A stretch of 64,000 nucleotides of DNA from Oscillospiraceae bacterium. GTDB lineage: Bacteria; Bacillota; Clostridia; Oscillospirales; Oscillospiraceae. The translations under genes were made by a program, and so were the position numbers. Every line of letters starts with the position of its first letter. Position 1 is the first letter of the stretch. Below the pieces are notes generated by a model. It did no database searches. It had not been told where the DNA came from and saw only the letters and a list, made by a program, of their open reading frames with translations. This document shows positions 6,029 to 11,278 of this stretch, piece by piece. The stretch is from contig JAFTFT010000033.1 of NCBI GenBank assembly GCA_017458335.1, forward strand, positions 1 through 64,000. The letters are read 5' to 3'.

Positions 6029-7312
6029 ATGCCCTCATTTGTTGACAAAGCGCGGATCCACCTGCACGCCGGAAAGGGCGGGGACGGTGCGGTCGCCTTC
6101 CACAGGGAAAAGTACATCGCGGCCGGCGGCCCGGACGGCGGAGACGGCGGCCGGGGCGGAAGCATTGTCTTTCTCCCGGACGATAACATGACGACCCTGA
6201 TGGACTTCCGCTATAAGAGAAAATACACCGCTCCCGACGGCGCGAACGGCCATGGGAAACGCTGCGCCGGGAAGGACGGCGCCGATCTCGAGGTCCGTGT
6301 GCCGCGCGGGACCCTGATCCGGGACACCGAATCGGGAAGCCTCATGCACGACATGTCCGACGGCAAACCCTTCGTCGCGGCCAGGGGCGGCCGGGGCGGC
6401 TGGGGAAACATGCACTTTGCGACCCCGACCCGGCAGGTTCCGCGCTTTGCCAAGCCCGGGCTTCCCGGGGAAGTGCGGGACGTGACGCTGGAGCTGAAGC
6501 TGCTGGCGGACGTGGGGCTGGTGGGCTTCCCGAACGTGGGGAAGTCGACGCTGCTCTCGGTGGTGAGCAAGGCGCATCCCAAGATCGCGAACTACCACTT
6601 CACCACGCTCTATCCGAACCTGGGCGTCGTCTATGCCGATGAGGGAAGCAGCTTTGTCCTGGCCGATATCCCCGGCATCATCGAAGGCGCCTCAGAAGGG
6701 GCGGGTCTCGGCCACGACTTTCTGCGCCATGTGGAACGCTGCCGCCTGCTGGTGCATGTGGTGGACGCCTCAGGCTCGGAGGGGCGTGACCCCGTGGAGG
6801 ACTTCACGGTCATCAACCGGGAGCTGTGTGAATACGAGCCGGCGCTGGCCGAACGGCCCCAGATTGTGGTGGCGAACAAGTGCGACATCATCACCGACGG
6901 CGGGGAAGCGCTGGAAAAGCTCCGCGCCCATGTCGAGGCGCTCGGCTTTCCGCTTCTGACGATGAGTGCCGCGACACATCAGGGGACGGCGGAGCTGATC
7001 CGCCTCTGCGCCGAAAAGCTCTCCGCGCTCCCGCCGATCGCTCCCTTTGAGCCTGACTATGTGGAGCCGGAGCCCGCTCCGGAAGGGGTGGAGGATGTCC
7101 GCATCGAGCACGGCGAGGACGGCGTCTGGCAGCTGGAAGGGGAATGGCTGAAGCGGGTGGCCGCCACGGTCAACTTCTCCGATTATGAGAGTCGGATGTT
7201 CTTCGACCGCTGTCTGAGAAAGGCGGGCATCTTCGACCGCCTGGAGGAACTGGGGATCAAAGACGGCGAAACGGTCTGCATCTATGATCTGATGTTTGAC
7301 TTCCGGTACTGA
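6029..7312 (+). CDS. obgE: GTPase ObgE/CgtA
   Basis: 427 residues with the full Obg architecture. The glycine-rich Obg fold occupies about residues 1-157 (AGKGGDGAVAFHREKY, GGPDGGDGGRGG). The G domain follows, with G1 GFPNVGKST near 168, G3 DIPGIIEGASEGAGLG near 213 and G4 NKCD near 285. A C-terminal OCT domain covers about residues 350-427. Obg is an essential ribosome-associated GTPase involved in 50S assembly and stress control, and it commonly lies downstream of rplU-rpmA, as here. GGAGG precedes the ATG. GC content is very high. Confidence 0.97.
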   Translation: MPSFVDKARIHLHAGKGGDGAVAFHREKYIAAGGPDGGDGGRGGSIVFLPDDNMTTLMDFRYKRKYTAPDGANGHGKRCAGKDGADLEVRVPRGTLIRDTESGSLMHDMSDGKPFVAARGGRGGWGNMHFATPTRQVPRFAKPGLPGEVRDVTLELKLLADVGLVGFPNVGKSTLLSVVSKAHPKIANYHFTTLYPNLGVVYADEGSSFVLADIPGIIEGASEGAGLGHDFLRHVERCRLLVHVVDASGSEGRDPVEDFTVINRELCEYEPALAERPQIVVANKCDIITDGGEALEKLRAHVEALGFPLLTMSAATHQGTAELIRLCAEKLSALPPIAPFEPDYVEPEPAPEGVEDVRIEHGEDGVWQLEGEWLKRVAATVNFSDYESRMFFDRCLRKAGIFDRLEELGIKDGETVCIYDLMFDFRY

Positions 7313-7322
7313 TTCGGGTAAA

Positions 7323-7790
7323 ATGAAGCGTAACAGAAAGCTTTTGTGGCTTTACGGACTCCTGACGCTGGCGGTGATGGTTCTGATTTTCTACATGTCC
7401 GCGAAGACCGCGGACGAGTCCGGCGGAATGAGCAAGTGGCTTGTGGAAACCGCGTTCGGGAGAGCGCTGGTCCGGGTGCTTCCGAAGATCACGGACCGCG
7501 GCCCTGAGATTGACCTCCGAAAATACGCCCACATGGCGGAGTATGCCCTGCTGGCGCTTCCCTCTGCGCTGTTTTTTCGGGAACTGCTTCTGGAACGGAG
7601 GCTTCCGCTCCGCGCGGCAGGCTGTTCGCTGGTCTTCTGCTTCCTCTATGCCTGCTCCGATGAATACCACCAGACCTTCATCCCGGGAAGAGCCGGTGCG
7701 ATGATCGACGTGGCCGTCGACATGGCGGGCGTCGCCTTCGGTCTTGGTCTTGTCCTTCTTGCGTGTATGAGGAGAAAGGAATTGAAATGA
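7323..7790 (+). CDS. VanZ family protein (PF04892-type)
   Basis: 155 residues from the ATG at 7323; the frame extends upstream but MKRNRKLLWLYGLLTLAVMV begins with the expected basic N-terminus and first helix. It shows the VanZ pattern of a short cytoplasmic start, a helix, the DLRKYAHMAEYALLALP motif near residue 65, and DEYHQTFIPGRAGAMIDVAVD near 112-132, whose H-Q-x-F-x-P-G-R stretch is characteristic. Function is uncertain; homologues are small membrane proteins of the cell envelope. It overlaps the next gene by ATGA, suggesting translational coupling. Confidence 0.85.
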   Translation: MKRNRKLLWLYGLLTLAVMVLIFYMSAKTADESGGMSKWLVETAFGRALVRVLPKITDRGPEIDLRKYAHMAEYALLALPSALFFRELLLERRLPLRAAGCSLVFCFLYACSDEYHQTFIPGRAGAMIDVAVDMAGVAFGLGLVLLACMRRKELK

Positions 7791-9469
7791 TCAAACACAG
7801 CTCCGCGTTCAGCACGATACCGTCCGTGCTCTCTCTTCCCGAAAAACTGAACGCGTGGGTCCGAACGCTTCTCGGACTCCGCTTCCCCGTGGAGCGGCAT
7901 TTTTCGGGCAGGGACCTGCTCCTCGCGGCCGGATCCGGGCTGTTGCTGCTCCTGGGCGTATGGGTCCGGGCGCTCTCTCCGCTTCGTCTCTATGTCTGCA
8001 TCCTGGCGGCGCTGGCGGCGGCGGTTCCCCTCGCTCTGCAGGGCTTCGGAATGCTCCGGATGAAGCGCGCGCCGCTGGAAGAGATCACCTGGCTCCTCTC
8101 GGCGCTGCTGGCCATGCTGACCGGGGAAACGACCGCGGGTCCGCTGATCCTGATCTTTGCGGATCTCCTGATGCAGGTTGAGGCCTACAGCCTGCTGCAC
8201 CGGGACGCCGCGCCGGACCGGCTCGCGGAGAGTGACCTGAAGCTGCGGCACGCGGTGGAGACCGCGGATGCGGAGAAAAGTCCGGAGCGCCGGGTCCTGG
8301 CGTCTGCGTCGCTGGGCTTTTACGTGCTCTATGTGCTGATCGCGCTTGTTTTTGCCGTGTGTGCGCTGCTGCACCTGGCCGACTGGAAAACCTGGCTGCA
8401 CAGAGCGCTGGTTTTCCTCGTGCTCGCGTCTCCGTCGGCGGTTCTTTTTTCGGCGCTTCTGACCCACTTCGGCGCAATCTACAGCGCGGCGAAGGCCGGG
8501 ATCCTGTTTGCCGGCGACGACACGCCGGAGCGTTTCAGCCGGTGCCGGATGTTTGCCTTCAGCAAAACAGGGACCGTGACCGACGGGCGCTTCATCGTCT
8601 CGGAGATCGCGCCGGTCGGCGTAAGCGAGGCGGAGCTCCTCCGGATCGCCGCCGTGGCGGAATGCCGCTCGGAACATCCGATCGCGATGGCGCTGAAAGC
8701 CGCCGCGGGGCTCCGCGAAGGCGTCGTGCCGGAGGGTGTCCTGGAGACGAAAGAGATTTCCGGCAAAGGGGTCAGCACCTTTTTCTCCGGCCATCATATC
8801 TATGTCGGCAATGCCGGCCTGCTGGAAGAGAACGGAATCTGGTATCAGATCCCGGCCAAGACCGGCTCGGCCATCCACGTGGCGGTGGACAGCACCTACC
8901 GCGGCTACATCATGATCTCCGACTCGCTGCGGGAAAACGCCTTTGAGGCGCTGGAGGAGCTGCGCTCGCTGGGGGCTGGGACGCTTGTGATGCTGACGGG
9001 CGATGTCCGCTCCGGCGCAAGGACCCTGGCTTCCTCCCTGAATTTTGACATGGTGAAGCCGGAACTGAACCCGGAGGAGAAGGGCTCCGCCGTCCGCTAT
9101 CTCCGTTCGGCCCACGGCGACGGCGCGCGGATCGCCTGTGTCGGCGACGGTTATCACGATGCCGAAATGTTCCGCGAGGCGGATATCTCCGTCTGTCTGG
9201 AACCGAAGGCGGATGCGCCCGGCGCGGACGTCAGCATCTTTTCCGACGAGATCGCACGGATTCCGCTGGCCTTCCGGATCTGCCGGGTGACGGAACGTAC
9301 GCTGCTGATGAACACCGCCGTCCTTCTCGGGGTGAAGATCCTGCTGGCCGTTCTGGGCGCGGCGGCCGTGTTTTCGACCGGGCTTGTCGCCGCGCTGGAT
9401 TTTGTCTTCGGCGTGGCCGCGACCGTCTATGCCCTGACCTGCCTGACGCTTGAAAAGAGGGGCAGCTGA
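7787..9469 (+). CDS. Degenerate P-type ATPase-like membrane protein (pseudoenzyme)
   Basis: 560 residues with the overall order of a heavy-metal (P1B) P-type ATPase: helices at about residues 43-140, a short loop, helices near 165-240, a P/N-domain block and two C-terminal helices. The N-domain SEHP (295-298), TGD (404-406) and GDG (453-455) motifs are kept. Key residues are lost: the phosphorylated Asp of DKTGT is Ser259 (SKTGT); the CPC metal site is Ser215-Pro216-Ser217; GDGxND reads GDGYHD; and the actuator domain is reduced to about 45 residues with no TGE motif. The frame is intact over 1.7 kb, so the gene looks selected rather than decaying. Ion pumping is unlikely; a regulatory, binding or scaffolding role is inference. 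It overlaps VanZ (ATGA), and a HAD-IB phosphatase starts 4 bp after its stop. Confidence 0.75.
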   Translation: MIKHSSAFSTIPSVLSLPEKLNAWVRTLLGLRFPVERHFSGRDLLLAAGSGLLLLLGVWVRALSPLRLYVCILAALAAAVPLALQGFGMLRMKRAPLEEITWLLSALLAMLTGETTAGPLILIFADLLMQVEAYSLLHRDAAPDRLAESDLKLRHAVETADAEKSPERRVLASASLGFYVLYVLIALVFAVCALLHLADWKTWLHRALVFLVLASPSAVLFSALLTHFGAIYSAAKAGILFAGDDTPERFSRCRMFAFSKTGTVTDGRFIVSEIAPVGVSEAELLRIAAVAECRSEHPIAMALKAAAGLREGVVPEGVLETKEISGKGVSTFFSGHHIYVGNAGLLEENGIWYQIPAKTGSAIHVAVDSTYRGYIMISDSLRENAFEALEELRSLGAGTLVMLTGDVRSGARTLASSLNFDMVKPELNPEEKGSAVRYLRSAHGDGARIACVGDGYHDAEMFREADISVCLEPKADAPGADVSIFSDEIARIPLAFRICRVTERTLLMNTAVLLGVKILLAVLGAAAVFSTGLVAALDFVFGVAATVYALTCLTLEKRGS

Positions 9470-9473
9470 AGGC

Positions 9474-10046
9474 ATGAACGTCTATGACTTTGACGAGACG
9501 ATCTTTGTTCCCGACAGTTCCTTCTGCTTTGTGCGTTTCTGCATGCGGCACTACCCCCGGGCGGTCTTCAGGGTCCTGCCGGGAACGCTGTGGCAGTTCA
9601 TCCTCTATCTCCGGGAAGGCCGGAAGGACGCCGGAAAACTGAAAGAGAGCATGTTCTCCTTCCTGAACCGCGTGGACAACGTCGAGCGTATCGTGGAGGA
9701 ATTCTGGGAAGAGAACTTTGCCCGGATCGAGCCGTGGTATCTTCAGCGGAAGCGCGGCGATGATCTGATCATCTCCGCTTCGCCGGAGTTTCTGCTGAGA
9801 CCGGCGGCGGAAAGACTCGGCGTTTCGCTGATCGCGACCCCGATGAACCCGTATACGGGAAAGATTCACGGAAAGAACTGCCATGACCGGGAGAAGGTCA
9901 GGCGCTTTCTGGAGCGCTACGACGCCGGCAGCGTCGAGAACTTTTATTCCGATTCCCTGAGCGACACGCCGATGGCGGCGCTTGCCCGCAGCGCCTTTCT
10001 GGTCAAAGACCATCGGCTTTTCCCGTGGCCTGAGGAAAAAGCCTGA
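9474..10046 (+). CDS. HAD-IB family phosphatase
   Basis: 190 residues from the ATG at 9474. HAD motif I is at the very N-terminus (YDFDETIF, the DxDxT nucleophile/acid pair), motif II is near residue 100 (IISASPEF), Lys of motif III lies in DREKVRRF near 143, and motif IV is YSDSLSDTPM near 160. Members of subfamily IB include phosphoserine and phosphatidylglycerophosphate phosphatases; the aromatic FVRFCMRHYPRAVF cap segment and membrane-protein neighbours suggest a lipid or sugar phosphate substrate, but this is not certain. It starts 4 bp after the pseudo-ATPase stop, so the two are almost certainly co-transcribed. Confidence 0.8.
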   Translation: MNVYDFDETIFVPDSSFCFVRFCMRHYPRAVFRVLPGTLWQFILYLREGRKDAGKLKESMFSFLNRVDNVERIVEEFWEENFARIEPWYLQRKRGDDLIISASPEFLLRPAAERLGVSLIATPMNPYTGKIHGKNCHDREKVRRFLERYDAGSVENFYSDSLSDTPMAALARSAFLVKDHRLFPWPEEKA

Positions 10047-10748: not shown

Positions 10749-10915
10749 TTCGGTTCCCCCTTTATGATACAGGGGAGAATATACCATATTTTATGGAATC
10801 TTTCAACAAAAAGAACGAAGACTTTTCTTGCAGTTTCCTGAAAATATGCAATGAGGCTTCCTTTTTTCCGGCATTCGTGTTAAAATAATAAAGATTCTGG
10901 TTTGGAGGAATAATT

Positions 10916-11278
10916 ATGGGCGACAGCTATATCAGCTACCGGGAAGAAAACGGCAGCATCAATATTTCGGAAGATGTGATCTCGGGCATTGTCCGCACGG
11001 CGGTTCTGGATGTGGAAGGGGTTTCCGGCATGTCCACGACCGCGGGGACGGAGCTTGCCGAGCTGATCGGCCTGAAGACCCTGCCCAAGGGGGTCAAGGT
11101 CCACTTTGAGGGACAGAAGATTATCATCGACGCCATCATCACCGTTGTGTACGGCAACAATGTCGTCAATGTCGCGAAAAACGTTCAGACCGCGGTCCGG
11201 TCTGTCATTCAGGCCTCCACCGGCTTTGAGGATGCCGAAGTGAACGTGCACGTCTCCGGAATCTCCTTTGACCGGTAA
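10916..11278 (+). CDS. Asp23/Gls24 family envelope stress protein
   Basis: 120 residues with the Asp23 fold signature: GSINISEDVISGIVRTAVLD near residues 12-31, a VSGMSTT turn, and the C-terminal NVAKNVQTAVRSVIQASTGF. Related proteins (YqhY, AmaP partners) are cytoplasmic or membrane-associated and linked to envelope and fatty-acid homeostasis. It is the first gene of the core block, 11 bp upstream of nusB, the standard clostridial position (yqhY-nusB). GGAGGA lies 7-9 nt before the ATG. Confidence 0.92.
   Translation: MGDSYISYREENGSINISEDVISGIVRTAVLDVEGVSGMSTTAGTELAELIGLKTLPKGVKVHFEGQKIIIDAIITVVYGNNVVNVAKNVQTAVRSVIQASTGFEDAEVNVHVSGISFDR

Follow-up and report, generated by a model that had tools for sequence, protein, structure and literature searches.

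The locus and its degenerate ATPase gene

The window analysed here is a stretch of 64,000 nucleotides (nt) from an Oscillospiraceae bacterium (contig JAFTFT010000033.1 of assembly GCA_017458335.1, forward strand), and the subject of this report is a gene at 7787..9469 that encodes a relative of the P1B-type ATPases and lies directly upstream of a gene for a HAD-IB family phosphatase. The defining residue of P-type ATPases is a phosphorylated aspartate, described as invariant, which the family of this protein, here called family A, has repeatedly lost. We conclude from sequence comparison that the protein is probably a selected, nucleotide-binding membrane pseudoenzyme (a sensor, scaffold or regulator) derived from a Zn/Cd-type P1B-ATPase. 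The features of the gene are as follows.

7787..9469, + strand: gene for the pseudo-P1B-ATPase (short form of family A), 560 codons and a stop, from ATG at 7787 to TGA
8192..8305, + strand: actuator remnant of about 38 codons with ends placed by eye, TGE core deleted, from alignment to orthologues of 650-700 amino acids (aa) and the canonical paralogue
8429..8437, + strand: Ser215-Pro-Ser217, where the CPC membrane metal site is expected
8561..8563, + strand: Ser259 codon (AGC) at the canonical phospho-Asp position
8561-8575, + strand: SKTGT (Ser259-Lys-Thr-Gly-Thr)
8675..8680, + strand: His297-Pro298, ATP motif of the N domain, kept
8996..9004, + strand: TGD motif, residues 404-406, kept
9143..9160, + strand: GDGYHD (453-458), replacing GDGxND

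The frame is open over all 560 aa without interruption, and the M2-M3 (actuator) region is by eye about 40 residues long and lacks TGE. A first-pass annotation of the window had listed SKTGT, SPS, GDGYHD, SEHP, TGD, GDG, the short actuator without TGE and the 560-codon open frame, and each of these was found as described. It also held that every catalytic hallmark had been lost, which is true of the phospho-Asp, CPC, TGE and GDGxND and is slightly too strong as a whole, since K260, TGD, K432 and GDG remain. Residues 112-114 of the protein do read Thr-Gly-Glu; this string was rejected as the actuator motif, as it lies within a hydrophobic segment and is not found at that place in two aligned orthologues, and we treat it as a presumed chance occurrence.

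Orthologues within the genus

Our sample of the window's genus comprises 102 genomes, some of them incomplete metagenome-assembled genomes, which affects the presence counts; the codes g1, g125, g64 and f1 denote genera and family. A protein search finds a family A orthologue in 74 of the 102 at E <= 1e-70. Seventy of the 74 matches are free of internal stops, and the four that were flagged have open reading frames (ORFs) of 656 (G006), 303 (G011, at a contig edge), 653 (G030) and 658 aa (G394).

Near-full-length orthologues, 50-71% identical to the window protein, are present in eight further genomes of the genus, and these too have a truncated actuator and no phospho-Asp, with Ser or Gly in its place. 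The sharing of both changes by eight proteins makes the state of the window protein more than chance. With the window's own genome (G000) they make up an actuator-less clade of nine (G405, at 71%; G371, at 68%; G385, G015, G360, G010, G369 and G378), with a Shimodaira-Hasegawa-like approximate likelihood ratio test (SH-aLRT) value of 100. Close relatives with normal motifs, which had been named as the finding that would speak for a recent pseudogene or a sequencing error, are not what we see: among relatives linked to HAD-IB, those with complete motifs turned up in g125 alone, another genus of the same family, and not in the genus of the window.

Residues lost and residues retained

Motifs were counted over the genus proteins that cover each site, being 88 for the phosphorylation site (P-site), 87 for CPC, 78 for TGE and 89 for the sites of the P domain. 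The P-site residue is D in 29 of the 88, G in 25, S in 14, E in nine, N in nine, and T and C in one each; phospho-Asp is thus missing in 59. The Glu of TGE is retained in 8/78, with an exact TGE in G417 and G357 only, and an exact CPC is present in 1/87 (G008 only). The complete set of TGE, CPC, D and GDGxND occurs in none of the 88 proteins that cover the P-site. The retained positions include E292, H297, G328, K260, T261, D406 and K432, which contact the nucleotide in P1B-ATPases. K260 and T261 are each present in 88/88 and G262 in 85/88; the N domain keeps E292 (88/88), H297 (81/88), P298 (87/88), G326 (80/88) and G328 (88/88), and both D406 of TGD and the P-domain K432 are found in 89/89. 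D454, a Mg-binding position, is kept in 60/89 and the N of GDGxND in 40/89.

An unbiased test gave a similar picture. Here 49 columns that are near-invariant in 79 motif-bearing canonical relatives were scored in 87 family A members, omitting the partial rows G011 and G381 and the off-locus proteins G168 and G321. The best-kept columns are two of the actuator fold (78/78 in proteins that have the domain) together with K, T, G, G, D and K on the nucleotide side (87/87 members). The TGE Glu (8/78), both CPC cysteines (16/87 and 7/87) and the phospho-Asp (29/87) are among the worst kept. Lowest of all are two Val positions (5/87 each), replaced by Leu, Ile, Ala and the like, and many membrane columns drift.

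These counts bear on three other explanations. The protein could be a nucleotide-independent scaffold or membrane chaperone, its P/N head being kept as a fold that the ATP-site residues hold together, and we regard this as a minor possibility, well short of probable. Several of the invariant columns are indeed glycines and hydrophobics, and the Mg-site D454 is lost in 29/89; the invariant set is nevertheless concentrated on nucleotide-contacting residues, while many membrane columns drift. To be set beside these counter-points is the equal retention of the two actuator-fold columns.

It seems unlikely to us that the 29 species which keep the Asp have a partly active or trapped P-type ATPase, whose phospho-enzyme could not be dephosphorylated for lack of TGE, and of which the Asp-less forms are end states. 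Sixteen of these 29 proteins have Gln at the position of the TGE Glu, and this replacement is the laboratory change used for trapping the phospho-enzyme (E2P); yet the explanation is not applicable to the window protein, with its Ser, and the metal site is lost in nearly all members. One sub-clade (G022, G031, G027, G390, G401 and others) keeps the phospho-Asp and has Ser-Gly-Gln at TGE.

A metal transporter that operates without phosphorylation, as a facilitator, is harder still to credit. Membrane segments seem by eye to be kept, but CPC is lost, the M7 Lys and M8 Asp are present in only 55/89 and 30/89 of family A as against 12/12 in motif-complete relatives, and a P1B paralogue with all motifs is encoded elsewhere in the same genome (G000:C38). 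Metal transport through a variant site was likewise set aside as unlikely, given the drift of CPC, M7 Lys and M8 Asp.

A scan of named genomes served as a control and was read for the best 80 of at least 485 relatives (at least 594 stretches). Thirteen of these 80 loci adjoin HAD-IB, and all 13 have degenerate motifs, three with the Asp kept; the other 67 all have the Asp and nearly all have TGE and CPC as well. Eight top matches read outside the genus are all motif-complete, one of them being G318 of g125. Alignment A2 omits L022, L023 and L026.

Selection on the gene

The ratio of nonsynonymous to synonymous substitution rates (dN/dS) was estimated by the method of Nei and Gojobori with Jukes-Cantor correction. 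Of 24 pairs computed, the identical pair G385/RUG282 and a repeat of G385/G015 were dropped, and one of the 22 that were counted (G168/G321) is off-locus. Over these 22 informative pairs, which share genomes and include several with dS >1, the whole-protein ratio is 0.05-0.45 and mostly near 0.1. The purifying selection that the first-pass annotation had asked about is therefore borne out: dN/dS is <0.5 in 22/22 pairs and not near 1. For the P/N region the ratio is <0.15 in 20/22 pairs and lower than the whole-protein value in 22/22; of the 15 pairs whose proteins both lack the Asp, 13 are at <0.15. In eight genome pairs the HAD-IB neighbour gives 0.08-0.17 as compared to 0.05-0.24 for family A, and in a control of two genome pairs only, the canonical paralogue is at 0.097 and 0.331 where family A is at 0.138 and 0.126, respectively.

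A gene in decay as selection relaxes, still uninterrupted, might show independent losses of the Asp and long branches, might be absent upstream of HAD-IB in three genomes and might give one pair at 0.45, all of which are seen here. We hold such decay to be very improbable in view of the low ratios, above all in the P/N region and similar to those of the HAD-IB neighbour, of the invariant ATP-site residues and of the 70 matches in 74 without an internal stop. A recent pseudogene or a sequencing error is ruled out by the shared changes, the dN/dS values and the open frames across many assemblies. As similar erosion is found in related species under selection, family A has probably been repurposed rather than broken, and the proposal of a selected pseudoenzyme is strongly supported by the genus-wide orthologues, the constant neighbour, the dN/dS values and the retention of the nucleotide site.

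The HAD-IB neighbour and the surrounding locus

The genes flanking the ATPase in the window are listed below.

6029..7312, + strand: obgE, recognised by eye, marking the locus on its upstream side
7323..7790, + strand: VanZ-family membrane protein (PF04892, NF037970)
9474..10046, + strand: HAD-IB family phosphatase (PF12710, TIGR01488)

They belong to a tight run, rplU-rpmA-obgE-vanZ-ATPase-HAD-IB (rplU, rpmA and obgE being named by eye), in which the ATPase start and the vanZ stop overlap by 4 nt (ATGA) and a 4-nt gap separates the ATPase stop from the HAD-IB start. HAD-IB was detected in 93/102 genomes of the genus, and every one of the nine without it is listed as <=80% complete. A family A gene lies upstream in 89 of the 93 (81 + 8, one of the latter a fragment). 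The other four are G393, whose contig ends 175 nt upstream of HAD-IB, and G168, G321 and G366, which have HAD-IB with no family A gene upstream. In G168 and G321 HAD-IB comes directly after obgE, and both genomes hold, away from HAD-IB, a family A relative with Asn at the P-site (G168:C4 and G321:C1; L283, L284).

All 29 of the wider contexts have HAD-IB after the ATPase gene and in the same orientation. The gap between them is <=20 nt in 55/81 loci and >100 nt in 25/81, often with another gene between; a small nitroreductase-like ORF was recognised by eye in seven of nine such wide gaps read (L050, L052, L053, L056 and others). The remaining neighbours vary more. VanZ was matched upstream in 7/29 genus contexts, so the VanZ-pseudoATPase-HAD gene order, whose conservation the first-pass annotation had proposed to check, is not general. 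An obgE match lies upstream on the same strand in 8/29 contexts and in 5/10 further ones, several contexts having a fetched upstream stretch of some kilobases with no obgE match. Downstream, asp23, nusB or xseA was matched in 10/29 contexts and mem10272 in 13/29, and 21/29 have at least one flanking marker (obgE, mem10272 or asp23/nusB/xseA). A fixed locus is thus shown only in part, and its constant element is the HAD-IB neighbour.

Outside the genus the association is looser. Each of the five g125 genomes with a detected HAD-IB carries, immediately before it, an ATPase of this clade; among 54 HAD-IB loci surveyed, mostly of other genera, a P1B-type ATPase is upstream in seven, and two of the remaining loci offer <500 nt upstream. 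An obligatory pairing of the ATPase with HAD-IB is not upheld beyond the genus and g125. In g64 (G100, G189, G249; L187, L201, L211) HAD-IB adjoins a different P-type ATPase, a TIGR01494 protein with ITGES, DKTGT and GDGVND, which we note as a weak lead.

The link of HAD-IB to family A is therefore suggestive and not obligatory, and the same may be said of the first-pass suggestion that the protein regulates the phosphatase: the frequency of the pair in the genus makes this possible, while HAD-IB standing alone in G168, G321 and G366 shows that it is not required. In its strict form, a dedicated regulator that tethers HAD-IB to the membrane and is gated by nucleotide, the idea is doubtful. It draws on the pair in 89/93, the short gaps in 55/81 loci and the five g125 genomes (three of the ATPases motif-complete, one partial and one part-degenerate), and must contend with the three genomes just named, with the P1B-type ATPase at only 7/54 surveyed loci and with the wide, often occupied gaps.

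Origin of family A

A tree was built by a quick search, with SH-aLRT as its only support measure, long-branch warnings for G001, sG355 and others, and the diagnostic columns blanked; the partial rows G011 and sG161, the duplicate RUG282 and eight later-added members are omitted. Family A groups as a single clade (SH-aLRT 100); its sister group is the g125 ATPases, and the canonical paralogues of the genus fall elsewhere. The Asp/non-Asp state changes at least six times on this tree, in counts that give no direction.

Like family A, the ATPases of G228, G278 and G318 of g125 adjoin the same HAD-IB gene (the HAD-IB proteins being 45-49% identical); unlike family A, they are motif-complete, keeping LTGES or LTGEA, CPC, DKTGT and GDGVND. 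Two of the three have His-rich N-termini, and that of G228 scores 506.7 bits against TIGR01512, above the cut-off of 313.5. Of the other two g125 ATPases, G161 is partial, the motifs that it covers being intact; the part-degenerate G355 keeps the D and still exceeds the TIGR01525 and TIGR01512 cut-offs. In G228 and G318 (L303, L304) the sequence read upstream matches none of the genes of the window's locus, obgE included. With motif-complete P1B-ATPases beside the same HAD-IB in g125, catalysis was most simply dismantled later; the most likely course is the conversion of an active P1B-ATPase beside HAD-IB, in which the Asp was lost several times and the actuator core was deleted once, in the window's clade.

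A second degenerate lineage and the sporulation context

The genus has a second degenerate P1B lineage, family B (L031-L036, e.g. L033:5259-6902, - strand), of about 550 aa and with a short actuator. It is present in 71/102 genus genomes at E <= 1e-90 and, among 300 of the family, also in five g125 and three g64 genomes. Family B resembles family A in being P1B-derived and degenerate with a short actuator, and differs in having its own, separate origin and in keeping the Asp-Lys of DKTGT and the P-domain Lys while losing the ATP motifs HP, TGD and GDGxND. Nearby genes in L033 include, by profile, xerC/D, cwlD and spoIVA; similar ORFs were seen by eye in L034 and L036 and not in L031.

SpoIVA was found in 64/102 genus genomes, and all 64 carry family A (61 + 3, one a fragment). 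Of the 38 genomes without a SpoIVA match, 25 carry it too, and the nine genomes of the window's clade are all among these 25. That SpoIVA was found in 0/9 genomes of this clade suggests that it has lost sporulation. In G036 (L045:10400-15000) matches to SpoIIIAB and SpoIIIAE, under the curated cut-offs, lie between HAD-IB and asp23; the corresponding interval of the window, 10787-10916, has no room for these genes, and L042 has other ORFs there. A link of family A to sporulation is a lead only, confounded by incomplete assemblies and kinship.

One speculative scheme would join these observations: an ion pump became, across the genus, a membrane device that senses nucleotide, families A and B may serve one signalling system, possibly with HAD-IB and originally tied to sporulation, and the window's clade keeps a stripped-down sensor after the loss of its sporulation genes. 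We consider the scheme as a whole rather unlikely.

A proposed mode of action

On the reading that we favour, that of a nucleotide-binding pseudoenzyme, ATP or another nucleotide would still be bound between the N and P domains, a phospho-enzyme would be neither formed nor cleaved, and metal would not be pumped. Binding and release of nucleotide may open and close the N/P head and so shift the membrane helices without a pump cycle, and the protein would thereby serve at the membrane as a sensor, scaffold or regulator that responds to nucleotide. The nucleotide-gated sensor suggested by the first-pass annotation would fit this reading. The window's clade has also lost the actuator core, which the pump cycle requires. 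The adjacent HAD-IB enzyme would be the first candidate for a partner.

A number of observations weigh against this. Given the losses of D454 in 29/89 and of H297 in 7/88 proteins, some lineages may no longer bind nucleotide; K432, TGD and the glycines may be kept for the fold and not for ATP, and the 29 Asp-keeping members might still autophosphorylate. The overlap of genomes and high dS among the dN/dS pairs count here too, as do the outlier G417/G418 (0.45 for the whole protein and 0.43 for the P/N region) and the pair G000/G371 (0.21 for the P/N region). Lastly, the family A gene is dispensable or relocated in G168, G321 and G366.

Should the favoured reading hold, the repeated loss of the Asp, TGE and metal site next to nearly invariant ATP-pocket residues would set nucleotide binding apart from catalysis in a natural system, for which related species offer motif-complete, part-degenerate and actuator-less forms.

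Comparison with known systems

By descent the window protein is a P-type ATPase, as seen from the tree and from its match to the superfamily profile TIGR01494 (P-type/HAD-IC ATPase, NCBIfam; 110.2 bits, above the cut-off of 62.3). The Pfam profile PF00702 is also passed (75.2 bits; cut-off 26.4), and PF00122 is not reached (22.1 bits; cut-off 28.1). The annotation 'HAD-IC family P-type ATPase' that follows from TIGR01494 would mislead. PMC10973460 calls the phosphorylated Asp of DKTGT invariant and the actuator TGE omnipresent in P-type ATPases, and that paper and PMC11970713 have the two serve phosphorylation and dephosphorylation. The window protein has Ser259 for the first of these, and the core that holds the second is deleted in it and in eight relatives.

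The closest sequence match in the PDB is ZntA (4umv; E 3.9e-35, query 154-546). With ZntA and the other Zn/Cd/Pb P1B-2 ATPases the window protein shares the order of its N and P domains and the ATP-site residues; unlike them, it lacks the phospho-Asp, the TGE/actuator core and CPC, and it falls under the cut-offs of TIGR01525 (232.3 bits; 346.25) and of the Cd-ATPase profile TIGR01512 (183 bits; 313.5), so that it is not a P1B-2 heavy-metal ATPase by these measures.

In the literature searched, which covers few subscription journals, we found no P-type pseudo-ATPase family. Pseudoenzymes in general, pseudokinases for example, retain a nucleotide pocket, have lost catalytic residues and are under purifying selection. 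The window protein has the homology to an enzyme, the lost catalytic residue and the retention by selection that mark a pseudoenzyme, and judged by sequence it also has the pocket residues of a nucleotide-binding one. Family A is thus like the pseudokinases in that its pocket residues are kept, its catalytic residues are gone and its genes are under purifying selection.

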